Source: Nitrospirota bacterium (GTDB lineage: Bacteria > Nitrospirota > Thermodesulfovibrionia > Thermodesulfovibrionales > UBA6898). From it: DNA of 64,000 nucleotides. The stretch spans positions 124,001-188,000 of the forward strand of contig JAJZPM010000001.1 in assembly GCA_021811105.1 (NCBI GenBank), read 5' to 3'. Below are positions 3,626 to 35,032 of the stretch, piece after piece. A model generated the notes under the pieces. It was not told where the DNA came from. It did no database searches and saw only the letters and a list, made by a program, of their open reading frames with translations. Position numbers and translations under genes: made by a program. Numbering within the stretch: the first letter of the stretch is position 1; every line of letters starts with the position of its first letter.

Positions 3626-4432
3626 ATGACAGAGACCTCGGAGACCATGGAACAGCTCGATTTCAAGATCCCTCAGACATGGGAACGAAAGGAAGTCGAG
3701 ATCGAGAAGATCATCATCGATGAAGAACTGCAATCAGGAGTGGTAGCGCCGACTTACAAGTCTGTCTCCCACCTAGGCATGCTCTTTCAGGAGGTTGTCC
3801 TTGTCGGTCAGGAGGACATGTACAAGATCGTGGCGGGCAGACGGAGGGTTCAGGCCGCAAGACAGGCGGGACTCAGCACGGTGCCGGCATTGGTCCTTCA
3901 GGCGGGCACTCCGGATGCAGTTCTTGCGACGATAACAGTCGTGGAGAACATGAACAGGCGGCCGAACCCGGCAGTTGAGGCGGAGGCGTTAAGCATCATG
4001 ATGGCTGCCTACAAATGGAGCCGGCAGGACATTGCCGATCATCTGGGAATCCCCATTTCGCACATCAAATCCTCGCTGAAGCTCTTCAAACTCATACCGG
4101 AGTTCTTCGATCAGCTCAAGGATGGAAGGATCACCCTTGCTGTAGCGAAGGCGCTCCGTGAGCTGCCGGCTGAAAAACAGAGGGAACTCCTCGGCGAAGA
4201 GAAATTGACCCTATCGACAGTTTTGGGCGCTCTGCGGACAAAAAAGCTTGAGCATTTTGTCCCGGCCGAGCTCTTTCGACTTCCCGAACAGACAGGGGAA
4301 GATGAGGTGGACGGCCTTATAAAAGAAGCGCTCGCCAAGCTCGAACGGGCAGCGTCCATAACGAGGAACGGAAAGAAAGAGAGCCTGGAGGAGGCCATCA
4401 AGGCCCTGAGAAGGGAGGAAGCCCATGTCTGA
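3626..4432 (+). CDS. parB: PRTRC system ParB family protein
   Basis: ParB/Spo0J signature (YKIVAGRRRVQAARQAG, ITVVENMNRRPNPAVEAEAL, HTH DIADHLGIPISHIKSSLKL); sits upstream of other PRTRC genes. Confidence 0.88.
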   Translation: MTETSETMEQLDFKIPQTWERKEVEIEKIIIDEELQSGVVAPTYKSVSHLGMLFQEVVLVGQEDMYKIVAGRRRVQAARQAGLSTVPALVLQAGTPDAVLATITVVENMNRRPNPAVEAEALSIMMAAYKWSRQDIADHLGIPISHIKSSLKLFKLIPEFFDQLKDGRITLAVAKALRELPAEKQRELLGEEKLTLSTVLGALRTKKLEHFVPAELFRLPEQTGEDEVDGLIKEALAKLERAASITRNGKKESLEEAIKALRREEAHV

Positions 4433-5090
4433 AAAGAGCATTACCGGGATCATACGCGGATGCGGCAAAAGGGTGCCGGGCGGCCTCTACGTCTGCAGCG
4501 GGCAGAGCCCTTACGGCAGTCCCATAGAGGATTTCATCATCGATCCTCCGCTGCCCTACGAGACCGGACCTTTCAGGGCGCCCGTCGTATTCGAGAAGGA
4601 GGGGAAGAACCATCTTATCCTCTGGGTGGGCTCGGAGTACTATCCTTACTGCTCAGACTTCGTGGAAGAGGTACGGCATTACGGAGTGTCGAAGAGAATC
4701 CCGAATAATTTCCCGGTCGAGAAGCTGGAGAGGGGGTCGATGTTGTTTCTCGTGCACCCAATGGCGATTATCAGGGAGCACTCCTACATGCCTCTTCCCG
4801 AATACTGTCCGAAACTGAAGCCCGAGCACCTGGAGACCATTGACGAGTACTGCCTCGGCCATTCCTATACGATCGCCGAACCGAACGCAGGCATCAACCA
4901 GAGGAAACTCGGGGATACGACATATACGGTGTTCCCTCAGACGATGGCAGAGGTCTCCTACGACTTTCAGCCAGGCATCTTCCTGCGTGTCCCTGTCACC
5001 CACTTCGATCATGTCATGGACAAAGGCAGGGTGAATCCGGATATCGCCGGGAAGAAAGCGAAGCTGCCGATCAACTTCGAAGATGATTAG
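4425..5090 (+). CDS. Hypothetical protein in PRTRC cluster
   Basis: 221-aa ORF overlapping the parB stop; no recognisable motif. Confidence 0.7.
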   Translation: MSEKSITGIIRGCGKRVPGGLYVCSGQSPYGSPIEDFIIDPPLPYETGPFRAPVVFEKEGKNHLILWVGSEYYPYCSDFVEEVRHYGVSKRIPNNFPVEKLERGSMLFLVHPMAIIREHSYMPLPEYCPKLKPEHLETIDEYCLGHSYTIAEPNAGINQRKLGDTTYTVFPQTMAEVSYDFQPGIFLRVPVTHFDHVMDKGRVNPDIAGKKAKLPINFEDD

Positions 5091-5166
5091 GGAGATGCCC
5101 CGGCCGGCAATCGGATTCGGTCCGGCAAGCCGACGTTACAAAGAATAAAAGGAGGAGACAGTCATA

Positions 5167-6384
5167 ATGAACAACCAATGGGAGGATGTCGAGAGGCTTT
5201 ACGGCATACACTACCCGACCCACAGGGGCAAGATCGCGGACATGTACCTCAGGGAGACGAAGGATGTGGCCGTGAAGTTCAAGGGCATGAAAACGGAATC
5301 CCCGGCAGTGGTCTTCAAGGTGGTCAACAAGAGCCCCTCCTCCAGCGGGCCGACCCTGCACAATGTCGTGATAGGCAAACACCCGTCCACGGGTCTGTTT
5401 ACCATGTGGTGCGGGGACTCGAGCATCGTGAAGGCCGATGGCGAGAGGGAAGACAAGTGCGAGTTCTGGAAGAAACGCGCCCAGCTCGATCCCGACGGGT
5501 ATATGTGCAAGCACATCGTTTACGCATACGAGAACCTCGACAGCTCCAAGAAGGCCGAAATAGAAGAGAGGCTCGCAGACACGTGGGCGGCTTCGGACAA
5601 CGGCGAGCGGCTTTCACTGGGACTCAAGATGTGGAAAAACATCTTTCTCTTCGGACCGACCGGATCGGGAAAGACACACGAGCTACGCCGGCTTCTGCAG
5701 GAATACAGCGGGTATGAAGTCTGCAAAATACATGTCAGCGACGGCCTGGAGGACGTGGATGTCCTGCAGAAGCTCCTTCCCGACGCGGACAAGGGAGGCT
5801 GGCAGCGGCGCAAGGGAGAACTGAGGGTCGCCTTCGATCTGGCCCGGGAGAAAAAGACGATCGTCCAGATCGAGGAACTGACCAGAAGCACCAGGTCTCT
5901 GCGCAATCTCCTGATCAAGGCCCTCGACAGGGAGGACGGCTTCTATACCCTTCACGACATCACCACCGGCGAGAGGGTCGCGGTGAAGGCCGAGAACATC
6001 CTCTTTATGGCAACCGCGAACCTGGGGTATTCCGACACGAGCGAAATAGACCCTGCGCTGGCAAGACGCTTCCCCATCTTTATCTTTCACGACTACAACG
6101 TCCAGAAGGAGCGCGAGATTCTCGAAGAGAGGGTGGGGGCGGAGATAGCGAAGAAGCTCTGCAGGATAGCGAAGGAGATCAGGGCCCAGTACCGGACGGG
6201 ACGGCTCAATTGTCCTCTGGACACGGGGTCCCTTATCGAATGGGCAGATGCGGTGGCAAATGGAGTTGACATTCCGGAGGCGGCCTCGCTGACATGGCTC
6301 TTCAGGGTAGTGGAAAGAGACAACATGGGGTACCCGGAGGCTGGTCAGCTCTCGGCGATAAACGACCTGCTTAGCAGATTATGA
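5167..6384 (+). CDS. AAA+ ATPase (MoxR/CbbQ-like) with N-terminal SWIM-like Cys/His motif
   Basis: FGPTGSGKTHEL Walker A, IVQIEELTRS Walker B, FMATANLGYSDTSEIDPALARRFP sensor; N-terminal WCGDSS...DKCEFW...YMCKHIVYAYENL. Confidence 0.85.
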   Translation: MNNQWEDVERLYGIHYPTHRGKIADMYLRETKDVAVKFKGMKTESPAVVFKVVNKSPSSSGPTLHNVVIGKHPSTGLFTMWCGDSSIVKADGEREDKCEFWKKRAQLDPDGYMCKHIVYAYENLDSSKKAEIEERLADTWAASDNGERLSLGLKMWKNIFLFGPTGSGKTHELRRLLQEYSGYEVCKIHVSDGLEDVDVLQKLLPDADKGGWQRRKGELRVAFDLAREKKTIVQIEELTRSTRSLRNLLIKALDREDGFYTLHDITTGERVAVKAENILFMATANLGYSDTSEIDPALARRFPIFIFHDYNVQKEREILEERVGAEIAKKLCRIAKEIRAQYRTGRLNCPLDTGSLIEWADAVANGVDIPEAASLTWLFRVVERDNMGYPEAGQLSAINDLLSRL

Positions 6385-7805
6385 CGGCCCCGGCAGTTGC
6401 CGCTCGCATTACACTCGATTCCCTCCGGAAAAGGCTCGAACTCTTGGCCGGGTTTCACACGGGCGAGGAGAAGTTCGCCCTCAGGATTAATCAAAAGAGT
6501 GGTGAGTCCTCTTGGGACTTCAAGAGACTCGTCATTCAGATAGGGTTAAAAAGGATTGAGGGCAGGGACGTGGATGTCCTCGCCGAGCTCCTGATGGAGC
6601 ATGAAGTGGGGCATGTCATACATACGAGCAGGAACATCGACCTCAAGGCCCTGCCTTACCCTTTCGACCTCCTGAACATCCTCGAAGACGCCAGGATCGA
6701 GCCCAAAAGGGAAAGGGACTTCCATCCGCTTCACGCTCATTCCTACCGGAAGATCTACCTGGAAAAAGAAGGGGAGGAGAACCCCTTTGCCAATCCCTTC
6801 AACATAGGGATTCTTCTGAGATGGCAAAGATGGGGAGTGGCGACGAAGACAGAAAAACCCCCTGAGCTCGACGACGATCAGTATGCGGAGTTCATCGAGG
6901 ACTGGAACCGGTTCCTGGACCTGAGCATCGAGGCCCGCTCGACAGAACACACGGGAGGACATGCGCAGGACCTGTACGAGAAATGGAAGTTCCTTTTCGA
7001 CCGGTACGATTCCGATACTCCGGCGCTGGGCTTAATCGAAGGGTCGGCCGATGCCATGGCCGGAAAAGGGCCGAAGTCCCCTGATGAGGGCGCGGGCGGT
7101 AGAGACGATCACGGCGATGACGGGGAGTTGTCGCCGGATTTCTTCGGTGACCCATGGTTCGAATGGGACATGCCCTTCATCCAGGAGCAGGCCAGAATAC
7201 TAAGGCAGCTCCTTGCGGTAAGGTCCCGGACCGAAAACGTCTATACCCTTACCGGGAGACGATTTGACGCAAGGCGCATAGAGAATCCGCCCCTTGCGCC
7301 TTTCAAAGGAGTCGCCGAGACCCTGTCCATAATTGTCCTGAAGAGGCTCCTTTGCGCCCTGGACGGAAGCGGCTCGATGCAGTACGGACCGTTCCTGGCC
7401 GGGTGCTTCCTCGCGCACATACTCTCGTTCGTGTTTCCGGTCGACATCTGCGTTACAACGAACAAGAGTAAGACCCCTATCCGTGTCCCCCTGAAACATA
7501 TCGATGCCCTGCGAGGATTCATGGCATGGGGAGGCTCCGAGAATTACAGGTCTCTCGGTTCGGACCCGACTCGCTATTCGTTCACCCTTTTTCTCACTGA
7601 CGCCTGTGTGGAAGAGGAAGACAAGAGATACGCGAGAGGGCTGAACAAGATCGCCAAGGTCGGCGCCGGCTATGTCGGAAACCCCAACCACAGATTGGAG
7701 GACGTCTTCATGCGGAACTTCTATGCCGAGGACCTCAGCCAGAACGTAGGCAGGATGGTGGCGCTCTTCCTCAGGAGGCACTTTACCAGACATCCGGCCT
7801 TTTAA
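6381..7805 (+). CDS. VWA-domain protein with HExxH motif (CobT/CoxE-like partner of MoxR-type ATPase)
   Basis: ATGA overlap with AAA+ gene; MEHEVGHVIH (HExxH); CALDGSGSMQYG (MIDAS DxSxS); LFLTDACVEEED. Confidence 0.82.
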   Translation: MTAPAVAARITLDSLRKRLELLAGFHTGEEKFALRINQKSGESSWDFKRLVIQIGLKRIEGRDVDVLAELLMEHEVGHVIHTSRNIDLKALPYPFDLLNILEDARIEPKRERDFHPLHAHSYRKIYLEKEGEENPFANPFNIGILLRWQRWGVATKTEKPPELDDDQYAEFIEDWNRFLDLSIEARSTEHTGGHAQDLYEKWKFLFDRYDSDTPALGLIEGSADAMAGKGPKSPDEGAGGRDDHGDDGELSPDFFGDPWFEWDMPFIQEQARILRQLLAVRSRTENVYTLTGRRFDARRIENPPLAPFKGVAETLSIIVLKRLLCALDGSGSMQYGPFLAGCFLAHILSFVFPVDICVTTNKSKTPIRVPLKHIDALRGFMAWGGSENYRSLGSDPTRYSFTLFLTDACVEEEDKRYARGLNKIAKVGAGYVGNPNHRLEDVFMRNFYAEDLSQNVGRMVALFLRRHFTRHPAF

Positions 7806-7847
7806 CGTCGGTCACCGCAATCGAATTACGCAAAACAATCGAAATGG

Positions 7848-7884
7848 GCCACAGGATCCCTCATCGGAGGCCTGTGGCTTTTCT
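7848..7884 (+). terminator. Intrinsic terminator-like hairpin
   Basis: GCCACAGG ... CCTGTGGC followed by TTTTCTC just after the VWA gene. Confidence 0.65.
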
Positions 7885-7903
7885 CATTCCATGAGGAGGA
7901 GCA

Positions 7904-8374
7904 ATGTCGAAAAAATTGGAAAAGGGATCGCTCACCCCGCTGAGCGAGAGCTTGAGGAGTTTCTTCGCCTCTCTTGTGGGGCTGGCCCAGCTCGGCGAAA
8001 GCCGCAAGGGGGCAGGCAGCCGGGAAGAGTATTCTCCCAGCGCGGAGCTCATTATGAAGCTGGCGGAGACCATCAAGGGATGGGATTCATGCACCTTCCG
8101 CCTCTTCAAAAAGGATGGCTACTCAGCAGAGATATGGACCGACAAGAATACTTTCCGGCAGGTAATAGTCGCCTTCCGTGGCGACGAAAAAAGCATCTGG
8201 CCTGTCGCCTTCGAGGTCCTCGACGAGGATACGGCGCTGACCGGGGTTTTCGGCTGCATTTCACGGGAACTCTTAGCGGAGCGCAGGGCCGCCGCTTTAA
8301 GATCCCTGGAAAGGCAGACGCCGGTGGCTGCAAGCTGTGCGCCGCCGTTTGAGAGCAGGAAACAGGTGGCTTAG
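7904..8374 (+). CDS. Hypothetical protein
   Basis: 156-aa ORF with upstream RBS gaggaggagca; no recognised domain. Confidence 0.6.
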   Translation: MSKKLEKGSLTPLSESLRSFFASLVGLAQLGESRKGAGSREEYSPSAELIMKLAETIKGWDSCTFRLFKKDGYSAEIWTDKNTFRQVIVAFRGDEKSIWPVAFEVLDEDTALTGVFGCISRELLAERRAAALRSLERQTPVAASCAPPFESRKQVA

Positions 8375-8538
8375 GAAAAACATCCGGGAGGAATCCATGA
8401 AGTTATCGCAGTTTCTATCGAGGGAAGTGAAGACAGCTCTCCGCGACTTTGTCCTGGATTGTGAGGCGGGACGATATGCGCACAGGGTGAAACGGGTGCG
8501 GAGAGAGAGAAACCATCACAGAGACAAGGAGAAGAAAC

Positions 8539-8874
8539 ATGGAAGGCAAATTAAACCGTCTCTATTTCACCGCAAATCTCAGGGAAGGTGATCTGGAGTG
8601 TCTTATCGTTTCCCTGAACAGGCTTCGGCAGGCGGAGATACTGGCTGAGAAGCGGGGCATCAGGACCGAAAGAGAACTCGAAGACTACGAGAGAATTATC
8701 ACACTCTTCGTGCCCACGGCCGACCTCGCCCCCCTCACTTCCGAGCTTAAGACGATGAGCATCGAGCCGGGGACCCTCGACGTGTACGATCCTGCCGCTC
8801 TTTCCGTCGCAAAAGACCTCGGATTCGTAGTCGAGGACATGACCCCGGAGAATCAGTCCTCCAGGGGCGACTGA
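8539..8874 (+). CDS. Hypothetical protein
   Basis: 111-aa ORF with RBS acaaggagaag; no recognised domain. Confidence 0.55.
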   Translation: MEGKLNRLYFTANLREGDLECLIVSLNRLRQAEILAEKRGIRTERELEDYERIITLFVPTADLAPLTSELKTMSIEPGTLDVYDPAALSVAKDLGFVVEDMTPENQSSRGD

Positions 8875-8887
8875 TATCCATGAGGAC

Positions 8888-8926
8888 CCCACGCCCTGCA
8901 TGATCCGACCTGTGTCAGGGCGTGGG
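8888..8926 (+). other. Strong intergenic hairpin (11-bp perfect stem, 17-nt loop) upstream of radC-like gene
   Basis: CCCACGCCCTG catgatccgacctgtgt CAGGGCGTGGG; no U-tract follows. Confidence 0.7.
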
Positions 8927-8965
8927 TTGCACGAAGCGGAAGTCAGAAAACAAGGAGATTCAGCT

Positions 8966-9385
8966 ATGGAAGTAAGAACAAGTCACAAGGGAAAGAAGGT
9001 GTCGGACCCAAACAAGCTGGCAGAGGTCATGTCCTCGATCCTTCGGGGAGAGGACGACATAGACAGGGACAAGGAGCATTTCTGGGTCATAGGTATGTCT
9101 GTGAAGTTGTCGATCCTGTACATCGAGCTTGTAAGCCTGGGCACGCTCACATCCGCGCTCATTCACCCGCGCGAAACCTTCCGCAGGGCGATCGCCAAAG
9201 GAGCGGCGTCCATCGCCTGTGTCCACAATCATCCTTCAGGGGACCTCGAACCGTCCAGTGATGACCTGAAGGTTACCGAAAAGCTTCGCGATGCCGGCGA
9301 GATCGTCGGGATCAAGCTGATCGACCATATCATCATCGCCAATGACGGAGGGTTCATGTCGATAAAAGAAAGGGGGATCTTGTGA
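8966..9385 (+). CDS. radC: RadC-like JAB/JAMM protein
   Basis: CVHNHPSGDLEPSSDD = HxHx7Sx2D JAMM motif; start ATG 8966 preferred over 8900 (RBS aaggaga). Confidence 0.9.
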   Translation: MEVRTSHKGKKVSDPNKLAEVMSSILRGEDDIDRDKEHFWVIGMSVKLSILYIELVSLGTLTSALIHPRETFRRAIAKGAASIACVHNHPSGDLEPSSDDLKVTEKLRDAGEIVGIKLIDHIIIANDGGFMSIKERGIL

Positions 9386-9428
9386 TTCACAAAAGGTTAG
9401 ACAGATTACCAGAAAGGAAGAGACGCCG

Positions 9429-10220
9429 ATGATCAGACTGAGCCTCCAATACTATCCGGAGGACCTTCAGAAGGCGGAAAACCGGGATTTCAAAAAGATG
9501 CGCCTCCGTGAGATATCTTCGTCAGTCGGTATCCTCAGGAGACAGATCGGGGCCGTGGAAGAGAAAATCATTCGCGAGGCTCAAATACCGCCCGCCGGGT
9601 TTACCGACACGAAATGGCTGAGCGCGGATGAGAAGAGAAAGATCCTGAGACAGTGGACCTCTTTCGTGAAGAACGGTTTCGCTGAAACTCTCTTCACGGG
9701 CTCTATCTACGAACACCTCCATCTGCACTGCGGGTATATCGCTCATTACAACAAGCACGGCTACTATGGCGAGTACTGGGGCGCCTATGCCCGCGATCTT
9801 CACCGTCACGCCAAGGAGGACAACTTTTCTGTCCGCTCTGTTCCCGCAGCCTTCGACAACTGGAAGAGCTTTATCCGGCAGTTCAGCATATGGGGAGACT
9901 ACAGGGACATCGGCGCGGCCATGATGATGGTTCTCAAGACGGAGCTGGAATGCCTTGAAGTGGACCTCCTTAAAGAAGTCCGCGGTCATTTCGATGCCGA
10001 CGCGATCAACTCATATCAGCTCTATCTCGCAGAGAGGCAGAACATTCAGGCGCGCATCGAGAGTCTTCGGAAAGAAGCTGAGGAGCTTGAGAATGGGCTG
10101 GCGGTTTTGAGCGAAGAGGACCACCGGCGATCTCTGGATGCCAAGTATGTCGAGCTCTTTGGAGAAAACTTTTCGGTCGACTCGGTCAAGCCTGCCGTAT
10201 CTCAGTTGTTCCTCATCTGA
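9429..10220 (+). CDS. Hypothetical protein (DUF4942-like size; family not recognised)
   Basis: 263-aa ORF, RBS aaaggaagag; helical C-terminus; no recognised domain. Confidence 0.6.
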   Translation: MIRLSLQYYPEDLQKAENRDFKKMRLREISSSVGILRRQIGAVEEKIIREAQIPPAGFTDTKWLSADEKRKILRQWTSFVKNGFAETLFTGSIYEHLHLHCGYIAHYNKHGYYGEYWGAYARDLHRHAKEDNFSVRSVPAAFDNWKSFIRQFSIWGDYRDIGAAMMMVLKTELECLEVDLLKEVRGHFDADAINSYQLYLAERQNIQARIESLRKEAEELENGLAVLSEEDHRRSLDAKYVELFGENFSVDSVKPAVSQLFLI

Positions 10221-10328
10221 CGGAACTCAGCCTGATCTCAAGATATCAGTACCTTTCCGCATAAGCCCATATATATTCAAACCTTTGGACCAGGCTTTAA
10301 ATCGAGGCCAAAACATCTCTCATGCCCG

Positions 10329-10354
10329 GCCGGTTCTGCCCTTGGCAGGCCGGC
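10329..10354 (+). other. Intergenic hairpin upstream of PRTRC E
   Basis: GCCGG tt CTGCC ctt GGCAG g CCGGC nested stem. Confidence 0.55.
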
Positions 10355-10386
10355 GCAGGGCCACATCACTCTTTCAGGAGGACGTT

Positions 10387-11031
10387 ATGTTGATAGATTT
10401 CAAGGAACTTTCGAAGTTGATTCCGGAGACAGGCAGCCTTTCTCTGAGCTTAAAGAAGGGAAAAGGCGAGAAGCTCGATGTTCTTTTCAGAGTGAAGCAC
10501 GACCTTGCTCAAATGAAGAACACCTCCGCAAGGACATCCGAGGAGGGGAAACAGATCGAAGCGGCGACAAAGCTTCTAGATCAACCCTATGCCTTCTCGG
10601 CGACCGCGGAAGATCTCAATGCAAGCTTCGAGGAGAAGATACTCCAGCCGGTCGACTCCACGAGGTCTCTCGTAGAGTTGATCACCGACAGGACAAAGGC
10701 CCTCGATGAAGCCGCAAAGTCCATCAGGACGTCAGCGGCAAAGACAAAGACAACAGAGAAGGCAAAAGTCGGCGGGACGGCGGACACGTCCCCGAAGGCA
10801 GCGGAGAAGACCGCGAAGAGCGAGCCTTCGATAGGCAGCCTCTTCGGCTCTGTTGGGGCCGACACGGGAAAGACCGAGGCAGGAGATAAGTCGGAAGATA
10901 AGAGCGAGAGCGCGACTCCTGGAGCCACAGGCTCTACGGTGCAGGAGCAAGGGAATGCCGAGGATGAAGAGGCTGAAGGAGAGGGAGAGACCGACGAAGA
11001 GCACGCGGAAGAAGAGAAGGAGGCAGCGTAA
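10387..11031 (+). CDS. PRTRC system protein E
   Basis: MLIDFKELSKLIPETGSLSLSLKKGKGEKLDVLFRV N-terminus resembles PRTRC E; acidic low-complexity C-terminus; gene order E-C-F-B-A-ThiF. Confidence 0.85.
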   Translation: MLIDFKELSKLIPETGSLSLSLKKGKGEKLDVLFRVKHDLAQMKNTSARTSEEGKQIEAATKLLDQPYAFSATAEDLNASFEEKILQPVDSTRSLVELITDRTKALDEAAKSIRTSAAKTKTTEKAKVGGTADTSPKAAEKTAKSEPSIGSLFGSVGADTGKTEAGDKSEDKSESATPGATGSTVQEQGNAEDEEAEGEGETDEEHAEEEKEAA

Positions 11032-11360
11032 TGGAAAAGGCAGAAGCCCTGACCCAGCTACCGAGAAAGTTCGTCTATAACAACATGACGCTCGACGACA
11101 TCTCCGGCACGCCCGACGAGGCCCTGGCCTTCTATGCCGACTTCTATACCGATCTCTCAAACGGCGTTGTCGAGGGGCCCGAAATCAAAGACGGGTTCAT
11201 GGTTTACACCTTCCGGAAGGCCGTCGACACAAAGGGCAATACAAGGGGGGACTCGCAGTTCGAGCTCATGGCCGCGGTTGCCGGCGCCCTAGATGACGTG
11301 AGAGGGTGGGAGCCGGACGAGGCAACGGAGATTCCGATCGGGGAACTCGGGGTTATCTGA
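11031..11360 (+). CDS. PRTRC system protein C (prokaryotic ubiquitin-like fold family)
   Basis: LPRKFVYNNMTLDDI...ALAFYADFYTDLSNGVVEGPEIKDGFMVYTFRKAVDTKG core typical of PRTRC C; 1-base overlap with E. Confidence 0.87.
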   Translation: MEKAEALTQLPRKFVYNNMTLDDISGTPDEALAFYADFYTDLSNGVVEGPEIKDGFMVYTFRKAVDTKGNTRGDSQFELMAAVAGALDDVRGWEPDEATEIPIGELGVI

Positions 11361-11361
11361 T

Positions 11362-12324
11362 ATGGAACTGCCGAAATTCGACCGGGTTCCAATGTCGATC
11401 CCGTTGTGGACGATATTCGCCGGGGAGCACGCGGCGGCCCTGTCATCGGCGAAGGATCTCTATCTTGCACTCGGAGGGCGCAAATCCTCCGAGTGCGTAG
11501 GTGAGAACTCTTCTCTGGCCGCTCGCGCGGGTGCAATCGAGGAACTGCTTTCCCGGAAAATTAAGAGGAGAGAGATAACACGCCTGACATCGGAAACCTC
11601 GCCCATGGATCCGCCGTTTCCCCTGGTTTCCTGCAACATCTTCAAAGGAGAAGCGCTGGAGGCCGTTCTCAATGTCGACTTCCACATCTTTTACGTCTTC
11701 TATCTGGATTTTCTCGATAGACTCAAGAAGAGAAGGCCCGCTGTTTACAAACTGCTTCGTCTCATCGTAGGAGGGATCCACTCCTACATGCCATGCGAGA
11801 CGGCCGCAAGTATTTCCGAAAGACGGTTCGATATGTACTCCGACGAGCTTGACGAGCTTGCAGCCGCAGGTGAGCACGGGGCCGTAAAGGAGATAAAGCT
11901 GGAGCAGAGAGATTTTCGCAGACATGTGAAATGGATCAAAATCCCCCCGGCGGTCTTCAACCTGAAACTGAAGAAGATGTACAGGAAAGTTTCGATATCG
12001 CTAAGGCCGCGTGAGCAAAGGTGGGTCAAAACCGCGATCGAGATGTTCGAGCATGCCCTTGCGGCCGGGGATATGGAGTACCGTTTCGACGACACCGAGG
12101 ACGGGGAGCGTATCGACCTCAACTGCTGCTTTAATCTCCTCTGGAAGGAAGGGAGCTATATATCCGACTCGACTATTCATGAATACGAATGTTGTGAGGT
12201 CATGGGTCCCATGGTGAGAGTGGTTGTCAGGTCGAAGGCGGATGTCTGGAAGTTCGTCCGACTTTTGAGGATGTACCGCCTTTTCGCGAAACTGCTGAGC
12301 ACAGGAGGTCGCACATGGCGTTGA
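11362..12324 (+). CDS. PRTRC system protein F
   Basis: Position between C and B; 320 aa; LCCFNLLWKEGSY/Cys-rich C-terminal region; assignment mainly by synteny. Confidence 0.75.
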   Translation: MELPKFDRVPMSIPLWTIFAGEHAAALSSAKDLYLALGGRKSSECVGENSSLAARAGAIEELLSRKIKRREITRLTSETSPMDPPFPLVSCNIFKGEALEAVLNVDFHIFYVFYLDFLDRLKKRRPAVYKLLRLIVGGIHSYMPCETAASISERRFDMYSDELDELAAAGEHGAVKEIKLEQRDFRRHVKWIKIPPAVFNLKLKKMYRKVSISLRPREQRWVKTAIEMFEHALAAGDMEYRFDDTEDGERIDLNCCFNLLWKEGSYISDSTIHEYECCEVMGPMVRVVVRSKADVWKFVRLLRMYRLFAKLLSTGGRTWR

Positions 12325-13025
12325 TACCAGTCAAAACCCTCGACGAATGGCGCTACGACGCTGTCAATGCCTTGATACTCTATTCCCTGAGACGTGGAGA
12401 TGTGAACTATCTGTCTCACGAGGAGCAAGGCCTGCAGAATTACGTCACCCTTCATCGCATAGATGGTGGGACGGTGCGCGAGGGCAGACCGATCACGAAG
12501 AAGCAGCTTCTTCGACTCTGCCGGACTGTGATGCCCAAGCTCAAAGCCAAGCCGATTTATCTGCCGGCCGAGGTGTTGTCATATAACACCATGGACGGCT
12601 CGGTCATGGTCTGGTGGAGGCCTGCGGGGGTTCAGACGCTCTTTTTCTCGAAAGAGATGAAGATCAGAAGCGGGAAGGCGCCACTGCCGCCCCTCGTATT
12701 CATCTTCAACCAGGGCTCCATCAGGACCGTGGCCCTGAAGGAAGACAGAAGGCCGGACCCCGAGACAGAGGTATATTTTACCCCCTTCTATAACGACGGC
12801 TGCATGGGAAACGCCAGGGTCCCGGTCTCGGTCACCCCGAAGGAGACCAGAGACCTTGAAGAGCTCTTCTTTCAAGGGGCATTTACGGCCCACGGGACCC
12901 CCACTCTGGAAGGCACGGACGGTCAGAGGTTGTGGAGCGGCCTGACGAGAAGCGGCCTCACGGCCTTCCCGTATGAGTGCCTGAAGAGGCGGGGCAAACT
13001 GAAAGACATAATCCAGGAGGAATGA
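12315..13025 (+). CDS. PRTRC system protein B (prokaryotic E2-like family)
   Basis: ITKKQLLRLCRTVMP...LPAEVLSYNTMDGSVMVWWRPAG...; PFYNDGCMGNARVP contains candidate catalytic Cys. Confidence 0.85.
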   Translation: MALIPVKTLDEWRYDAVNALILYSLRRGDVNYLSHEEQGLQNYVTLHRIDGGTVREGRPITKKQLLRLCRTVMPKLKAKPIYLPAEVLSYNTMDGSVMVWWRPAGVQTLFFSKEMKIRSGKAPLPPLVFIFNQGSIRTVALKEDRRPDPETEVYFTPFYNDGCMGNARVPVSVTPKETRDLEELFFQGAFTAHGTPTLEGTDGQRLWSGLTRSGLTAFPYECLKRRGKLKDIIQEE

Positions 13026-13694
13026 ATGACAAAGGACGAAATAATCAGGAAGCGGTTCCCGACGCTTATGGCGCCGAGGGAAGATCCGCTGCCAGAGTGC
13101 CCTGTGGGTGAGACGAGGTTCCTGATGGCCGCCGACGGGCTGTATCTGGAGACGAAGCAGCCTTGGGGGAGGCTTATCAGACGGCTCTGGAACCCCTCCC
13201 GGATCCGGCCGCTACCCTACGGGACAGTGGAGGAAGTCGATGAGTTCCTGACCATCTTGCAAAACCACATCATGCCCGTAATATCGGATTGCATGATCAA
13301 GGAGGCTGCTATATACGCCCGTGACAATGAAGAGTGGGCCGGGCTTGTGATCTGGGATGGAGGAGGGTGTTATTACCTGCCGGTCCCTTTCAAGGCTACC
13401 TGTATTCGCGCGGAGGACATCCAGATGCCGAGATTGCCCGAAGGCCACTACATCGTAGGCGATGTCCACAGCCACCACAGGATGGCCCCCTCGTTCTCTC
13501 CAATCGACGACAACAGCGATAGCATGGGGGCCAGGATTTCCGTTGTCCTTGGAAATTTCAGGGAAGGCGAGGAAGGTCCGAGATTTGACTGGAAGGCCCG
13601 CTACTGCGTCCAGGGCTTTATTTTCTCCGACGATATTACTTGCTGTCAGGAGGCACATGAAAATGATCCAAAACTTATCGACATCGTCTTTTAG
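13026..13694 (+). CDS. PRTRC system protein A (JAMM/JAB peptidase-like)
   Basis: VGDVHSHHRMAPSFSPIDD = HxHx7Sx2D JAMM motif. Confidence 0.87.
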   Translation: MTKDEIIRKRFPTLMAPREDPLPECPVGETRFLMAADGLYLETKQPWGRLIRRLWNPSRIRPLPYGTVEEVDEFLTILQNHIMPVISDCMIKEAAIYARDNEEWAGLVIWDGGGCYYLPVPFKATCIRAEDIQMPRLPEGHYIVGDVHSHHRMAPSFSPIDDNSDSMGARISVVLGNFREGEEGPRFDWKARYCVQGFIFSDDITCCQEAHENDPKLIDIVF

Positions 13695-14535
13695 GCATTA
13701 CCTCGACGCGTCCCTCACTGCGCCCCATGCGCCGGTCGGAGTGGCGCTGATCGGCACCGGTGGGAACGGAGGCCCTGTCCTGACGGAGCTTGCGCGGATG
13801 CATGTCGCGCTTCGCGCCCTCGGCCATGCGGGCCTGCATGTTTACGCCTTCGATGACGACAGGGTCGAAGAGCCGAACATAGGGAGACAATTGTTCTCAC
13901 GCGCCGAGAAGGGCAGAAACAAGGCTGAGGCTCTTGTGACGAGGGTCAACTGTTTCTTCGACCTCAGGTGGGAGGCGTACCCCTGGAGGGTGGACAAAGA
14001 GAACATCGGCGAGCTGGCTGAGCTCTGCAGGCGGAGGAACCTTCAAATCGTCATAACCGCGGTGGACAACGCCGAGACGAGACTGCTGATCTGGAGCAGT
14101 CTAAGACATGTCGGTCCATTCTATTTCCTGGATATTGGCAACTCCAGGGAGACCGGCCAGTGCATCCTCGGGGTACTGGGCGGCGTGATCAAGCAGCCGA
14201 GGCGCGCAGGCTGCATAGGTTATCTTCCTACTACCGTGGATTTGTACCCGGACATCGGAACACAGGACAAGGAGGAGAGGCAGGGGCCTTCCTGCAGCAT
14301 CAAGGAGGCCCTTGAAAAGCAGGACCTTTTCATAAACCGCATCGTAGCCGAGTTCGCGGTCGAACTCCTGTGGAAGGGGTTCAGGGAAGGGTACATAACG
14401 GTGCATGGCGTCTATGTGAATCTGAAAACGATGCACGTCCGGCCGCTTCCAGTCGATCCTGCCACATGGGAGCGTATGGGCTGGGTCTACAGGAAGAGAA
14501 AGGCTGTCACAGGGAGAGTACTGAAAGCGGCTTAG
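13657..14535 (+). CDS. PRTRC system ThiF family protein (E1-like adenylating enzyme)
   Basis: VALIGTGGNGGPVLTEL nucleotide loop; YAFDDDRVEEPNIGRQLFS; GPSCSIKEALEKQDLFIN. Start ATG 13657 with RBS caggagg overlaps protein A by 38 nt. Confidence 0.88.
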   Translation: MKMIQNLSTSSFRHYLDASLTAPHAPVGVALIGTGGNGGPVLTELARMHVALRALGHAGLHVYAFDDDRVEEPNIGRQLFSRAEKGRNKAEALVTRVNCFFDLRWEAYPWRVDKENIGELAELCRRRNLQIVITAVDNAETRLLIWSSLRHVGPFYFLDIGNSRETGQCILGVLGGVIKQPRRAGCIGYLPTTVDLYPDIGTQDKEERQGPSCSIKEALEKQDLFINRIVAEFAVELLWKGFREGYITVHGVYVNLKTMHVRPLPVDPATWERMGWVYRKRKAVTGRVLKAA

Positions 14536-17703: not shown

Positions 17704-20052
17704 GTGGAACCCGTATTCATTGACCTTCATATTCACACATCAGATAATCCAGAAAGCCCGACTGATTCTTATGATCTGGATCTTTTGAAAGAAAAGATAG
17801 GAGAGACTGCAGAGGGCTCGGCTTACCTGATATCATTTACGGACCACAATACAATCAATAAAAACGTCTATTTAAAAGCTGTCGAGAAATTTAAGAATCT
17901 GCTGCTAGGGGTAGAGTTGCATGTGCGCAATTACGATCATCAAAAACCCTATCATTGCCATATCTATTTCAACCTAAAACAGATAGATGCCTTATCAATA
18001 GACGCGATCAATTCTATACTGGACGAGCTCTACCCCAAAAAAGTCATTTCACCTGATGACAAAGCTATTCCCACTTTGGAACAAATAACGAAGCACCTCG
18101 ATTCTTATGAATTTGTGCTATTGCCTCACGGAGGACAGAACCATTCAACCTTTGATAAGTCTATCCCTCGTAATGTTCGATTCGACAATACTTTAGAGCG
18201 AAGCATTTACTACAATCATTTTGACGGGTTTACGGCAAGAAGCAATATCGGTCTCGACAAAACACTGGAATACTTTGATCGACTGGGGATAAAAGAATTC
18301 ATTAACCTCGTCACCTCGTCAGACAATTATTCACCACAAAAGTATCCCGGCGCCAAAGCTGACGATGCAGCTCCATTTGTACGGACATGGATGCTGGCTA
18401 GCCCGACTTTCAACGGCTTGCGCCTGTCGCTGTCTGAATCATCAAGACTGAGGTATGGAGATAAACCTGATTCATGGGCCGAGTGCATTCAAAATGTGTG
18501 GCTAAAAAATGACCAAATTGACATTGATGCTACTTTGACCCCCGGACTGAATGTCGTTATTGGCGGTTCATCCAGCGGAAAAACGCTTTTCGTTGACTCG
18601 CTCTATAGGAAGATTACTGGCGAACTTGATCAGAGTGACTACCTTAAGACACCGTATGGGATTCAAGACATTCAGGTAAAGAACCCGGCAGGCCAAACTC
18701 CCCACTATCTTCCGCAAAACTATATCATTAAGGTATGTGACCAGAAAGATAAGGAAAACACCATCGATGATATATCAATTTTAAAGAGAGTATTTCCCGC
18801 CGACAAAGAAGAACGCCAAGAAATCGAAAATGGTCTTCTCGAACTGAGTTCCCGGCTAAGCATACTGGTCCAATCAGTTAAGGAGATTGGATTACTACAA
18901 GATCGCTTATTGAGAATACCAAAGTTGTCTCATCTTATCGTCACAGACGTTATTCAAGGCAATCCGCTCAAACGTATATTGCCCGATGACAAGACCGTTG
19001 AATCAATTGCATATGGCAAGGCAAGGTATAATCGCGAAACTAAGTACCTTGATGATATTGAGACCTTCTTGTCTCGGAATCCTTTGATCAACCACGATGG
19101 TACCCTTGTGGAAAGACTGAAAGACGAGCTCAAGATAGCCCTTGATTATTCAGAGATCGAGTCGGTCATTCGCCAGATAATCACTACTCATGAAAAAGAA
19201 ATTGATAGCGCCCAAGAAACTGAGAACCGAGAAATTGCGACCAAGAGACAACAGTTTGAAAGCTTGCTGGAATGCATCAGACGATATTTCACCTTCCACA
19301 AGGAGTTTTACGAAGCATTAGAAGCAATTTCCAAGTTTTCTATCAAGATTACAACAAAAGAGATTAAGTCTATGGGGCACAAACTATTTATTGACAACGA
19401 ATTTGAGCTATCCAAAGAAAAATTTCTTGAAGCAGTGAATAGTATGCTTAAGCCGGAGTATGCAATTAAGACTTTTGGTGATATCAGACCTGAGACTTTG
19501 TTTGAGGGAAAGTTTCGAAAACGTGATCCAAAGGTGGCTGACTACGATGATTTCAAGAATCGGATAAACGGGCGATTTAGGAGCATGAACAAGAAGAAGT
19601 ATCGGATAATTACAAAGGAAGGAAAGGACTTCGAGAAGTTGAGTGCTGGATGGAAAACTTCAGTTATTCTCGATCTGATACTCGGCGGGGACACCGACAA
19701 CGCTCCCCTGATTATTGATCAGCCTGAGGACAATCTGGCAACGGGCTACATAAACTCCGGATTGCTTCGGGCAATAAAAAAATGCAAGACCAAAAAGCAG
19801 ATTATTCTTGTGTCGCATAATGCCACAATACCTATGTTAGGCGATGCCCAGAATATTGTTATGTGCAGAAATGATGACAAGAAGATCACTATCAAATCAA
19901 ACCCACTGGAAGGCGCAATCGATGGCAGAGATGTTGTTGACTTAATAGCGGAAACTACGGATGGCGGAAAAATTTCGGTGAAGAAACGAGTCAAAAAGTA
20001 CAACCTGAAGAATTTTAGGGGGACTGATGAAACTAATATTCAAGAAAGATGA
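17704..20052 (+). CDS. PHP-domain phosphoesterase fused to SMC/RecF-like ATPase (TrlF-like family)
   Basis: FIDLHIHTSDNPESPTDSYDLD (HxH PHP motif), LLPHGGQNH; VIGGSSSGKTLFVDSL Walker A; PLIIDQPEDNLATGYINSGLLRAIKKCKTKKQIILVSHN Walker B region. Confidence 0.85.
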   Translation: MEPVFIDLHIHTSDNPESPTDSYDLDLLKEKIGETAEGSAYLISFTDHNTINKNVYLKAVEKFKNLLLGVELHVRNYDHQKPYHCHIYFNLKQIDALSIDAINSILDELYPKKVISPDDKAIPTLEQITKHLDSYEFVLLPHGGQNHSTFDKSIPRNVRFDNTLERSIYYNHFDGFTARSNIGLDKTLEYFDRLGIKEFINLVTSSDNYSPQKYPGAKADDAAPFVRTWMLASPTFNGLRLSLSESSRLRYGDKPDSWAECIQNVWLKNDQIDIDATLTPGLNVVIGGSSSGKTLFVDSLYRKITGELDQSDYLKTPYGIQDIQVKNPAGQTPHYLPQNYIIKVCDQKDKENTIDDISILKRVFPADKEERQEIENGLLELSSRLSILVQSVKEIGLLQDRLLRIPKLSHLIVTDVIQGNPLKRILPDDKTVESIAYGKARYNRETKYLDDIETFLSRNPLINHDGTLVERLKDELKIALDYSEIESVIRQIITTHEKEIDSAQETENREIATKRQQFESLLECIRRYFTFHKEFYEALEAISKFSIKITTKEIKSMGHKLFIDNEFELSKEKFLEAVNSMLKPEYAIKTFGDIRPETLFEGKFRKRDPKVADYDDFKNRINGRFRSMNKKKYRIITKEGKDFEKLSAGWKTSVILDLILGGDTDNAPLIIDQPEDNLATGYINSGLLRAIKKCKTKKQIILVSHNATIPMLGDAQNIVMCRNDDKKITIKSNPLEGAIDGRDVVDLIAETTDGGKISVKKRVKKYNLKNFRGTDETNIQER

Positions 20053-20266
20053 GGAAAGCCAAATCAGCGTATTTCAGGTCATTCACGGACAAGAAAGAGA
20101 ATTTTCCTATGTGGATATGATCAAAGGCCTCATAAAGTCAAAGCAAATGGAACCGCCTGAGATATCGGCCGGATTTACTGATGCGGAAGTCAAAAGTATC
20201 AATTCAATGGTCGCATTCATCAACAAGGAAATCTCTGCAACAGAATCAGCAGAATCCAAGATGTGA
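20027..20266 (+). CDS. Small hypothetical protein overlapping the PHP-ATPase gene
   Basis: 79-aa ORF with 26-nt overlap; same strand. Confidence 0.55.
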   Translation: MKLIFKKDEESQISVFQVIHGQEREFSYVDMIKGLIKSKQMEPPEISAGFTDAEVKSINSMVAFINKEISATESAESKM

Positions 20267-20350
20267 ACTTGTCAAGACTTGTGAAAACTTATAACCAATC
20301 GTTCCCGGGGAGCCCGCCCGCTGAACTCATTGCTGTTCTCTTAATAAAAG

Positions 20351-21223
20351 ATGAGTTACAGATACTACAGTAAAGAAAAACTGTCCAAGGCCGCTGATGA
20401 TATGCTCTCCTTTGGGATTTGCAATAATCTCTTGGACAGCGCTTTCAATATTTTGCAGCACCCCTTTGAACTACTTAGAAATGAGAGGAAAGGTTATGGA
20501 AGAAGGCAAAACATAGAAGAATTTGAATTGCTCGCCTCTTTCCTAAGCACAGTGACGGCAATTGAATTACTCCTGAAATCGATGATTGCCGTAAAAAGCT
20601 GGAAGCTTATTTTTAGCAATCACAAGAAGGTTTCGCGTGATGCCTTAATCAAGGGTGATTTCAGAAGCATAAATCTAGAGAACTGCATAGATATTATAGA
20701 ATCTCATCACGATGTAAGTATTGATACCCGAATTAAGAATAGAGTAGAAGAAATTAGGGTGCTTAGGAATAAGCTTACCCATTACTACTCAGATTTTACA
20801 GAAGACGAAATACTGAATTACATTGCTTTGGGACTCGACATATTCATAGAGGTCTATAGGTCGTATCTCAAGAAAGAAGTCTATGATGAGAATGATAGGA
20901 CGGAAGGCTTTGAAGAGGATCTTTCTGATATTCATCAGTTTGTATTGGCCCGTCTTGAATCTGCCAAGCGGAGAGAAGGCAATGTTTATCAGCTAGACAA
21001 CGACCTAAACCGTGAATGTCAGAAATGTTGGACAGAAAACGTGGTCTTAACAAAGTCCAATGAAATAAAATGCCTCTATTGCGGCCATGAAATAGACGTA
21101 GAAGAATTTGCAGCATACCACGCCGCCGATAATACAGAAATCAGCACATGCAAGAATTGCCAAAAGAAAACAGTTATTGTTAGAAGGTCTCATAAACCTA
21201 AATGCATTCTTTGTGGGCGGTGA
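20351..21223 (+). CDS. HEPN-motif protein with C-terminal zinc ribbons
   Basis: EIRVLRNKLTHYYSD (Rx4H); CQKCWTENVVLTKSNEIKCLYCGHE and CKNCQKKTVIVRRSHKPKCILCGR zinc ribbons. Confidence 0.65.
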   Translation: MSYRYYSKEKLSKAADDMLSFGICNNLLDSAFNILQHPFELLRNERKGYGRRQNIEEFELLASFLSTVTAIELLLKSMIAVKSWKLIFSNHKKVSRDALIKGDFRSINLENCIDIIESHHDVSIDTRIKNRVEEIRVLRNKLTHYYSDFTEDEILNYIALGLDIFIEVYRSYLKKEVYDENDRTEGFEEDLSDIHQFVLARLESAKRREGNVYQLDNDLNRECQKCWTENVVLTKSNEIKCLYCGHEIDVEEFAAYHAADNTEISTCKNCQKKTVIVRRSHKPKCILCGR

Positions 21224-27194: not shown

Positions 27195-27670
27195 TGGCAG
27201 AACCACTTGCTGATAGAGTTATAGAAGGCATTGACCAGGCTGCTGAGCTTTACCACCGCCTCGTCGTGCTGGTGGCCCCTGCCGGTACGGGCAAGACCGC
27301 TACACTACAGGATGTTCACGAGCGCACATCAGCTCCGCTGGTCAATGTCAACCTCGAACTGTCACGGCGAATGCTCGACCTGACCGAGCGTCAGCGGGCA
27401 TTGCAGTTGCCCCGCCTTCTCTCGGAGATCGTGGGCGGATTCTCAGTAGATGTGGTTTTGCTGGACAACGTCGAGGTCCTCTTTGACGTCTCGCTCAAAC
27501 AAGACCCGCTGCGGCTTCTGCAGGGACTCTCGCGGAACAAGACAGTAGTCGCAGCGTGGAGCGGCTTCGTCGACGGCGAGAACATGGTCTACGCAGCACC
27601 GGATCATCCCGAATACAGACGATATCCTGTACGAGATTTCTTGGTAGTGCACTCGGAGGCCATTGCATGA
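27194..27670 (+). CDS. brxF: BREX-3 system P-loop protein BrxF
   Basis: [41 protein letters not shown]...[11 protein letters not shown]; first gene of BREX-3-like order. Confidence 0.85.
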
Positions 27671-27704
27671 AAAAAAGGACCGAAAGCGTAAGGGGGCAGA
27701 CGTA

Positions 27705-30700
27705 ATGAAATACGGAGATCTGATCCAATTTGAACCTATTGAATCCGTGGTCCAGTTGCGGGCCGCCGACGAGGCTGCTGCCGCCCGCCAACTTGTCCAG
27801 ACCTATGTCATCTCCGCAGAGATGGCCGAGAAGCTCGTCAGCTTGGTTGTTCCTCAGCTTCAGTTCGACCAGCCCATGGATAACAAGGGGCTACTGGTCG
27901 TTGGCAATTACGGCACCGGTAAGTCTCACCTCATGTCCGTAATCTCCGCTTTGGCCGAGAACGGCGATCTGGCCGCCAGCCTAAACGACAAGAATGTGGC
28001 GAAAGCGGCGGACAAGATCAGTGGGCGCTTCAAGGTGGTTCGGACTGAGATCGGCGCGACGACCATGTCTCTGCGCGACATCCTCGTTGCCGAGCTGGAG
28101 GAGCATCTGGCCGCGATTGGCGTGTCCTATTCCTTCCCGCCGTCGGACAAGGTCCCCAATAACAAGCGCGCCTTCGAAGAAATGATGACCGCTTTTCACC
28201 AGGAGTACCCCGATCATGGGCTGCTCCTCGTGGTGGACGAGCTGCTCGACTATCTGCGCACCCGCAAGGACCAGGAGCTGATCCTCGACCTCAATTTCCT
28301 GCGTGAGATCGGCGAGGTCTGCAAGGACCTGCGGTTCCGCTTTATAGCTGGTGTCCAGGAAGCCATCTTCGACAGTCCGCGCTTTTCATTCGTGGCCGAC
28401 AGCATCCGCCGGGTGAAGGACCGCTTTGAGCAAATCCTCATCGCCCGCAAGGACGTCAAGTTCGTTGTGGCCGAGCGTCTGCTCAAGAAAACCGCCGACC
28501 AGCAGGTAAAAATCCGGGAGTATCTGACTCCCTTTGCCAAGTTCTACGGCCGCATGAACGAGCGCATGGACGAGTTCGTGCGCCTATTCCCCGTACATCC
28601 GGACTATATCGATACCTTCGAGCGGGTCACCGCAGTGGAAAAACGCGAGGTGCTCAAGACTCTGTCGCTGGCCATGAAAAAGCTGATGGGCCAGGATGTG
28701 CCCGCCGACCGGCCGGGTGTCATCGCTTATGACGGCTACTGGACGACCCTGCGAGAGAACCCGTCTTTCCGCGCCGTCCCGGATATCAAGGCGGTCATCG
28801 ACTGTAGCCAGGTGCTCGAATCCAGAATCCAGCAGGCTTTCACCCGCCCGGCATACAAACCTATGGCCCTGCAACTCATCCATGCATTGTCGGTCCATCG
28901 CCTCACGACCGGCGACATTTACGCCACCCTGGGTGCGACAGCAGAGGAATTGCGTGACGGCCTGTGTCTCTTCCAGCCGGGCATCGAAGAACTGGGCGGC
29001 GATCCGGCCGACGACCTGCTCTCCCAGGTGGAAACCGTCTTGCGGGAAATCCACAAGACGGTAAGCGGTCAGTTCATCTCCTCCAATCCGGACAACCGTC
29101 AGTTTTACCTGGATCTCAAGAAGACCGACGACTTCGACGCCCTGATTGAGAAACGAGCTGAGAGCCTCGATTCCACGCAACTCGACCGCTACTACTACGA
29201 AGCGCTCCGTCGGGTCATGGAGTGTACCGACCAGACCTACGTGACGGGCTACAAGATCTGGCAGCACGAGCTCGAATGGCTGGAGCGCAAGGCCGCGCGC
29301 CAGGGTTACCTCTTCTTCGGTGCGCCCAACGAGCGCTCCACGGCAGTGCCGCCGCGGGACTTCTACATCTACTTCATCCAGCCCTTCGACGTACCGCACT
29401 TTAAGGATGAAAAGAAACCCGACGAGCTGTTTCTGCGCCTGGCAAACACGGACGAAGAATTCCGCACCGCGCTCCGAAATTACGCTGCGGCCCTTGATCT
29501 CGCCTCCACTGCATCGGGCCACGCCAAGGCCACTTACGAATCTAAGGCATCGAACTTTTTGCGCGATCTCGTGCAGTGGCTCCAGAAGAACATGACCACT
29601 GCTTTTGAGGTCACCTACCAGGGGCGTGCCAAGTCTCTCAACGAGTGGGCCAAGGGTAAGTCCATTCGTGAGCTTTCGGGTATCAGCACTCACGAGCGAA
29701 TCAATTTCCGGGACCTGGTTAACACCATCACGGGCATCTGTCTCGGGACGAAATTTCAGGACCAGGCACCCGAATATCCATTTTTTTCGGTACTCATCAC
29801 CGGAGCAAACCGGGCTCAGGCCGCGCAGGACGCCCTTCGCGCTATTGCTGGACAGAACCGCACAAAGCAGGCTGCCGCAGTACTGGACGCTCTGGAGCTG
29901 CTCGATGGTGAGCGGCTCGATCCCTATCGGTCGAAGTATGCCAAGCACGTCCTCGGCATCACCAAGAAAAAGGGCCAAGGTCAGGTCGTCAACCGCTCAG
30001 AGCTGATTCAGGATGTCCTCGGCGTGGAGTACCTCGCGCCGCAGTCGCTCAGGCTTGAACCCGAATGGTCCGTGGTGGTGTTGGCCGGTTTGGTCTATGC
30101 TGGAGAAGTTGTCCTCGCCATCCCGGGCAAGAAATTTGACGCTACCTCTTTGCCGCAACTGGCCGGAACCGGCATCGATGAGTTGATCCAGTTCAAACAT
30201 ATCGAGAGCCCCAAGGATTGGAACCTCCCAGCACTAAAGGCGCTTTTCGAGCTGCTCGGGCTCACACCGGGTTTGGCCCAACTGGTCACGCAAGGCAAGG
30301 ACGAGCCGGTTCAGGAGCTTCAGAAGGCCGTAATAACTGCTGTAGAGCGCTTGGTGCTCATACATCAGAGCCTTCAAACTGGACTGTTTTTTTGGGGTCG
30401 CAGCCTCATGGCTGAGGACGAAGCCCAGAAGCTTCGCGCAAAACTGGATGGGACCAAGGCATTCCTTGAATCCCTGCAAGCGTACTCTACGACTGGAAAG
30501 CTCAAGAATTTCCGCTACGACGCATCGGAAGTGACCTCCCATCGGGAAGGCCTCAGCTCCCTTGCTGTGATCAAATCGCTTGAAGAACTGGTGGTCGACA
30601 TCGGGTCAACGGCATCTTATCTATCCACCGCCGAGGCGATCCTGCCTACCGGACACGAGTGGATCGATAAGATGAAAGCGGCACGGGACGAGGTCTTGGC

Positions 30701-32227: not shown

Positions 32228-32236
32228 AAGCGAACT

Positions 32237-35029: not shown

Positions 35030-35032
35030 TCG

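Follow-up and report, generated by a model that had tools for sequence, protein, structure and literature searches.

A gene cluster of a Nitrospirota bacterium raises the question of why a ubiquitin-like protein should be made with a tail beyond its conjugation glycine. The cluster lies in a stretch of 64,000 nucleotides (the window), which covers bases 124001-188000 of a 294-kb contig in a 3.94-Mb draft genome. It belongs to the PRTRC system, a name that stands for ParB-Related ThiF-Related Cassette (compare PMC7466150) and not, as the original prediction had it, for a set that includes RadC. The genes for PRTRC proteins E, C, B, A and ThiF, together with one gene in the position of F, are collinear on the forward strand in the order E-C-(F)-B-A-ThiF (10387-14535). 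Protein C has a ubiquitin-like domain (residues 1-69, 11031-11237) that ends in AVDTKG, and 40 residues follow Gly69, for a total of 109 (tail residues 70-109 and stop codon, 11238-11360). Protein A is a metallopeptidase of the JAMM/JAB family. Together with a comparison of about 100 relatives, these features suggest that the ubiquitin-like protein is produced with an extra tail for the neighbouring protease to remove. We put the probability at roughly 60% that the cluster encodes a dedicated ubiquitin-like pathway in which the C precursor is cut by A and thus freed for ThiF and B.

The PRTRC cluster in the window is real, as its match to the system is far beyond chance. Protein families were assigned with NCBIfam and Pfam profiles at their curated cut-offs. 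ThiF (13657-14535) passed the threshold of TIGR03736 with 242.6 bits (cut-off, 144.75; E = 3.6e-72), and C passed that of TIGR03738 with 56.5 bits (cut-off, 45.95; E = 2.2e-15) as well as that of Prok_Ub (E = 9.9e-14). For A (13026-13694), B (12315-13025) and E (10387-11031), the PRTRC models were the top NCBIfam matches with scores slightly below the cut-offs (89.6 against 101.8, 113.1 against 131.45 and 36.5 against 37.95 bits, respectively; E = 1.2e-32 for B with TIGR03737 and 3.6e-9 for E with TIGR03741), as expected of a divergent lineage. A, with its N-terminal DUF2016 domain (4.5e-20) and its Prok-JAB domain (2.1e-7), and B, with Prok-E2_D (1.3e-25), exceeded the Pfam domain cut-offs, and E did not. 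The open reading frame (ORF) of E is open from 10138, and the alignment favours a start at MLIDFKEL, at position 10387. ThiF most likely starts at the ATG at 13657, which follows AGGAGG, rather than at 13462.

The cluster had been described as complete. This holds for E, C, B, A and ThiF, whereas the gene between C and B (11362-12324) is assigned to F by its position and a weak similarity: it matched no NCBIfam model, TIGR03742 included, and no Pfam model, and it resembled only F-position genes of related bacteria (1e-9 with that of L039; L-numbers denote the sampled loci). The gene order is that of annotated PRTRC plasmids of Beta-, Gamma- and Alphaproteobacteria. The window cluster is thus a new member of the known PRTRC system (NCBIfam TIGR03734-TIGR03742), with which it shares the E, C, B, A and ThiF families and their order. 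It differs in that the canonical PRTRC ParB is absent, F is not recognised by its model and C carries a tail after TKG. PRTRC clusters are carried on many Pseudomonas, Burkholderia and Xanthomonas plasmids and are also found in Bacteroidota genomes; they are uncommon in the sample of the window's own phylum (8 of 396 genomes).

We compared about 100 relatives, surveying C in 101 clusters from plasmids and genomes of several phyla and ThiF in 111. C had been proposed to be of the prokaryotic ubiquitin-like family and to fold as a beta-grasp, and both proposals were borne out, the first by the profile matches and the second by an AlphaFold2 (AF2) model. The predicted local distance difference test score (pLDDT) of this model is 85 to 90 over residues 10-62; residues 67-73 are flexible, and a low-confidence helix spans residues 76-90. 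Ubiquitin-like domains topped the matches in a fold search, with weak E-values. The C-terminal glycine after the beta-grasp domain is invariant in all 101 clusters, and the motif [TADVSN]KG, with RG once, is present in every sampled cluster. C ends at this glycine in 79 of the 101 clusters, two of which have 2 to 3 extra residues. In the other 22, including that of the window, 40 to 81 residues follow, as they do in one divergent cyanobacterial cluster. For these counts the start of the tail was set by the profile-anchored end of C.

Among the evaluable cases, tails on C were confined to genomes that encode A. Twenty tailed C proteins are encoded in the same cluster as A, and the cyanobacterial plasmid L139 also carries both; its C scores 13.8 bits compared with 1.3 for the best shuffle. 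We considered L147, a tailed C with no A nearby, as a counter-example and discarded it, since its genome (G644) holds A elsewhere, on another contig, the contig being broken. The tailed C of L038 was left out of the count, as its contig ends inside F and the assembly shows no B. All 22 evaluable tailed C proteins thus have A encoded. Conversely, none of the 51 clusters without A, from Bacteroidota, Pseudomonas megaplasmids, Deinococcus and Desulfovibrio, has a tail on C: all end at the glycine. The A profile found nothing above its cut-off in 41 genomes or records that carry A-less clusters or the L140 cluster of Bacillus thuringiensis, and its one weak match was on the L140 plasmid. We dropped L140 as a clean A-less case because the same plasmid has a second cluster with a JAMM protein. 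This second PRTRC-like set (L148; NZ_CP053971, about 181 kb) comprises an E2-like protein, a JAMM protein and ThiF and shares the plasmid with the L140 set.

ThiF relatives were sought with three sequences, because a wider alignment of the family proved too heterogeneous as a query. Among independent pairs on a ThiF tree, none goes in the opposite direction. The association between the tail and A is therefore consistent and one-sided, and it is statistically unproven.

What follows the glycine in the tail-less clusters bears on the origin of the tail. In 71 of the 79 tail-less clusters, a small ORF, here called X, begins soon after the stop codon of C, with a gap of 1 to 6 nucleotides in 59; it is often in the frame of C itself, with one stop codon between them. 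X is coding and under purifying selection, since the ratio of nonsynonymous to synonymous differences (pN/pS) over 11 close pairs is 0.33 in its frame, and the two alternative frames give 0.93 and 1.14. X typically has a hydrophobic C-terminus with a proline several residues before the end. As this proline was partly a selection criterion for the free ORFs, only fused tails test the motif, which is present in 15 of 17 unique ones (p = 0.002 against shuffles). X matched no NCBIfam or Pfam family, and two of the 71 picks (L137 and L095), which look to be in the wrong frame, were excluded from the X profiles. It is mostly absent from the gene tables of annotated plasmids and is listed as hypothetical in three (L017, L019 and L023). 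In Aromatoleum, the annotated F is covered by the F profile only from residue 32 on, at about the end of X, which indicates that the annotated start of F overruns X; F starts that overrun the X frame are also annotated at 6433-6642 of L014 and in similar plasmid records.

Sequence comparisons linked X to the tails directly. The free X of Polaromonas pPNAP01 (L015) matched the C tail of Hydrogenophaga (L066) with an E-value of 5e-7. With a profile of free X, the L065 tail reached 1.3e-3 and all shuffled tails stayed at 0.01 or above; with a profile of fused tails, free X ORFs reached 1e-4 and every antisense control stayed at 0.7 or above. By these matches, the tail of C in Comamonadaceae demonstrably corresponds to X. 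For the window, we infer that the tail would likewise be X from its position between KG and F and from its end, IPIGELGVI, which fits the C-terminal pattern. The window gene would then most simply be a C-X fusion, by analogy with eukaryotic ubiquitin encoded ahead of a ribosomal protein. We tentatively propose, as somewhat less than an even bet, that X is an overlooked PRTRC protein translationally coupled after C, that it became fused via the conjugation glycine in several lineages including that of the window, where A separates the two, and that it is a partner or first substrate of the system. We had also considered the ORF at 7529-8494 of B. thuringiensis pBMB299 (L021), with its appearance of a ubiquitin-like part, AKG and a JAB domain, and we dropped it as evidence because its ubiquitin-like part fails to score. 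Its JAB domain is preceded by a stretch ending in VGAKG, and a fusion of a ubiquitin-like protein to JAB is possible.

Alternatively, the tail might never be removed. C would then work uncut as an adaptor, KG would be a relic of structure or coding, and shared ancestry would account for the association of tail and A. We regard this as unlikely, at about one chance in five, even though the small number of independent events on the ThiF tree would suit it. The DNA that encodes KG bears on the same point. In tail-less C genes (for example, L073, L074 and L090), the KG codons read AAAGGA in 36 of the 79 and sit at the Shine-Dalgarno position for X, so that this DNA may serve both the end of the C protein and the start of X translation, and resemblance to a ribosome site could alone conserve KG. 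This explanation is weakened because KG is retained in all 22 fused proteins, in which it is no longer terminal and a separate ribosome site for X would be superfluous. KG also falls within the flexible segment of the AF2 model. Comparison with a sister species of the same genus (L044) showed that the three residues after KG differ (NTR and DKE), whereas the flanks are kept. Residues 76-109 of the tail, with one nonsynonymous and five synonymous changes, gave a ratio of nonsynonymous to synonymous substitution rates (dN/dS) of 0.05. A constrained tail behind a free junction is as expected for a protease site, although these counts are small.

The enzymes of the cluster have the residues for the predicted chemistry. 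ThiF had been called E1-like on the strength of GTGGNG, DDDRVEEPNIGRQ and PSCSIKEALEKQDLF, all of which are present. Its adenylation residues and SCS are invariant in the alignment, the E1 motif SC[S/A/G] occurs in 110 of the 111 ThiF proteins, and the candidate catalytic cysteine is that of PSCS (codon 14293-14295). B is E2-like according to its Pfam match, as proposed. Its supposedly lone cysteine is one of three, in LCRT, DGCMGN and YECL, and that of DGCMGN is the invariant one, conserved in every B inspected, which makes Cys163 (codon 12801-12803) the candidate catalytic residue. In this genus, the loop that holds it is a few residues shorter. A has the intact JAMM motif attributed to it (E103, H148xH150, S158 and D161), and these five residues are invariant in all A proteins aligned. 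A PDB profile search with A returned weak JAMM matches only, and those with B and C revealed no solved relative.

ThiF together with a beta-grasp protein is also what ThiS and MoaD systems have, and C could be a sulfur carrier, adenylated by ThiF to yield a glycine thiocarboxylate as in ThiS and MoaD; B and A would then act on the carrier in its thiolated form. Genes of the phosphoadenosine phosphosulfate reductase family lie near PRTRC in several plasmids, in line with this possibility. Against it, biosynthetic enzymes were not seen among the genes of the cluster, the set includes an E2-family protein with an invariant cysteine and a JAMM protease, and a 2006 survey found no JAB in thiamine or molybdenum cofactor operons (PMC1779556). 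Sulfur transfer is accordingly improbable, more so than a tail that stays in place.

The pathway that we favour would run as follows. C would be synthesised as a 109-residue precursor, with a beta-grasp domain up to TKG69 and then the 40-residue tail. A would cleave it after Gly69, and ThiF would adenylate the freed glycine and form a thioester on the PSCS cysteine, as its invariant residues suggest. B would take C onto Cys163 and hand it to a target, and A, to judge from its family, would also remove C from conjugates. Where A is missing, C and X are encoded apart, and conjugation may not be reversed.

Several observations weigh against this pathway or parts of it. On the ThiF tree, the tail and A states change only about five times, too few for significance. 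The window tail scored -1.8 bits with the X profiles, inside the range of shuffles, and it does not align to the L038 tail. The downstream histidine of B, described as absolute in the 2006 paper, is offset by one residue in the window and absent in some relatives. A fairly confident model of B was obtained (mean pLDDT, 83), and a Foldseek search with it against the PDB gave noise only and no significant E2 match; B is thus assigned to E2 from its Pfam profile and from the 2006 paper. In the literature searched, we found no biochemistry on the PRTRC system and no paper testing its function, PRTRC and ubiquitin being mentioned together in just one, unrelated, paper.

The genes around the cluster had been taken to indicate modification of a replication, partition or DNA target. 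ParB, E or replication proteins might be modified, with effects on copy number or partition. We consider this possibility, which is compatible with the cleaved-precursor pathway, rather doubtful, though less so than the other alternatives. Many plasmids carry the cluster; a ParB gene usually lies immediately ahead of E, and dnaN, ssb or helicase genes are often nearby. Genes for a plasmid DNA polymerase III beta subunit lie near PRTRC in L018, L020, L021, L022, L023 and L139, and several E proteins end in LF. By contrast, the window has no canonical ParB, and most neighbours are conserved within the genus only. The ParB gene at 3626-4432 (forward strand, like the neighbours that follow) encodes a Noc/Spo0J-type protein, with 54 bits against the cut-off of 278.6 of PRTRC_parB (TIGR03734), and is not the PRTRC ParB. 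No protein of this genome passes that cut-off, the best reaching 116.5 bits. PRTRC ParB is not universal, as it is likewise missing next to E in several annotated clusters.

The remaining neighbours fared similarly. L044 retains the whole region bounded by the helicase-like ORF and the primase. Conservation of the primase, the helicase-like ORF and ParB, which had been named as evidence, is mostly limited to that one species, and a replication, partition or DNA target is not supported. The ORF of 1171 residues named as an SNF2 helicase had no Pfam match at 1e-3. The RadC protein (8966-9385) does have the intact JAMM motif reported, HNHPSGDLEPSSDD. We rejected it as a second pathway member or deconjugase because its occurrence is sporadic, with a homologue near only 8 of 111 clusters. 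A MoxR/CbbQ-type AAA ATPase and the protein after it, with a VWA-like DGSGS motif, are encoded at 5167-7805. Plasmids of Burkholderia and Cupriavidus likewise have an ATP-binding and a VWA-like protein annotated close to PRTRC, a pair that shows no homology to that of the window at 1e-4. We found no tRNA gene in the 244 kb scanned of the 294-kb contig (C34), which has two ParB-like genes and is perhaps a plasmid or a large island.

Phage defence was the least probable of the functions that we weighed. The cluster would in that case be a module like CBASS Cap2/Cap3 or BIL, with which it shares a class of chemistry, and 13 kb downstream of it the window contains a BREX-like island. ThiF matched PADLOC E1-E2 models weakly (4e-7), and B matched none of them; no CD-NTase was seen, C has one ubiquitin-like domain compared with two in BilA, and in many plasmids the cluster stands among the element's own maintenance genes. 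The BREX-like island (27663-43516) encodes BrxC/PglY (DUF6079), a NucC/PD-DExK-like DUF6602 protein, PglX, a BrxH-type helicase, PglZ and a second methylase. At 17704-21223, a TrlF/Ppl-like AAA ATPase is followed by a HEPN/DUF3644-like zinc-ribbon protein, possibly a defence pair.

With its tail, C permits a simple first experiment on a 20-year-old prediction, in which A would be expected to cut it after Gly69; A-less lineages serve as natural controls. After digestion with trypsin, a modified lysine would retain one glycine (+57.02 Da), which is the mass of carbamidomethylation, so that conjugates could escape ordinary proteomics. If our proposal is true, the C-X protein would be the bacterial equivalent of ubiquitin-ribosomal protein precursors, and X would be either a functional partner of the pathway or its first substrate.

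The ubiquitin-like reading of the cluster is itself not new, since Iyer, Burroughs and Aravind proposed it in 2006 (PMC1779556). The original prediction of a pathway for activation, conjugation and deconjugation, which the conserved catalytic residues support, was therefore already published. Row 6d of Table 1 in that paper lists a ubiquitin-like protein with a highly conserved C-terminal glycine, a JAB protein with an extra N-terminal domain, an E1-like, an E2-like and an alpha-helical protein, and conjugation and removal were proposed for this operon. The window cluster shares these five component types, the N-terminal addition of the JAB protein and the conserved glycine. It differs by the one-residue shift of the conserved histidine in the E2-like protein, and the portions of the paper that we consulted make no mention of a tail on C, a small ORF after C or a link to JAB. 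New here are the fused C precursor, the association of such fusions with the JAMM gene, and the small X gene.

Other systems resemble parts of this arrangement. BIL (BilABCD) also has a ubiquitin-like protein, an E1, an E2 and a JAMM protein in one operon, and its JAMM protein BilC was reported to expose the C-terminal glycine of BilA (PMC11354881). BilA has two ubiquitin-like domains and BilD is a two-part E1, whereas the window has a single Prok_Ub domain in 109 residues and a single ThiF domain. Type II CBASS shares an E1/E2-like conjugation undone by a JAMM protease, Cap2 and Cap3 being its enzymes; it differs from the window cluster, in which no CD-NTase was seen, E1 and E2 are separate and a dedicated ubiquitin-like protein is encoded. 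Eukaryotic ubiquitin precursors are processed by cleavage in a like manner (PMC4522658). As in UBA52 and FUBI-S30, a ubiquitin-like protein appears to be joined through its terminal glycine to a second small conserved protein; the window differs in that the partner would be X and the proposed protease is a JAMM protein of the operon itself. In many lineages, moreover, the two parts have separate genes.

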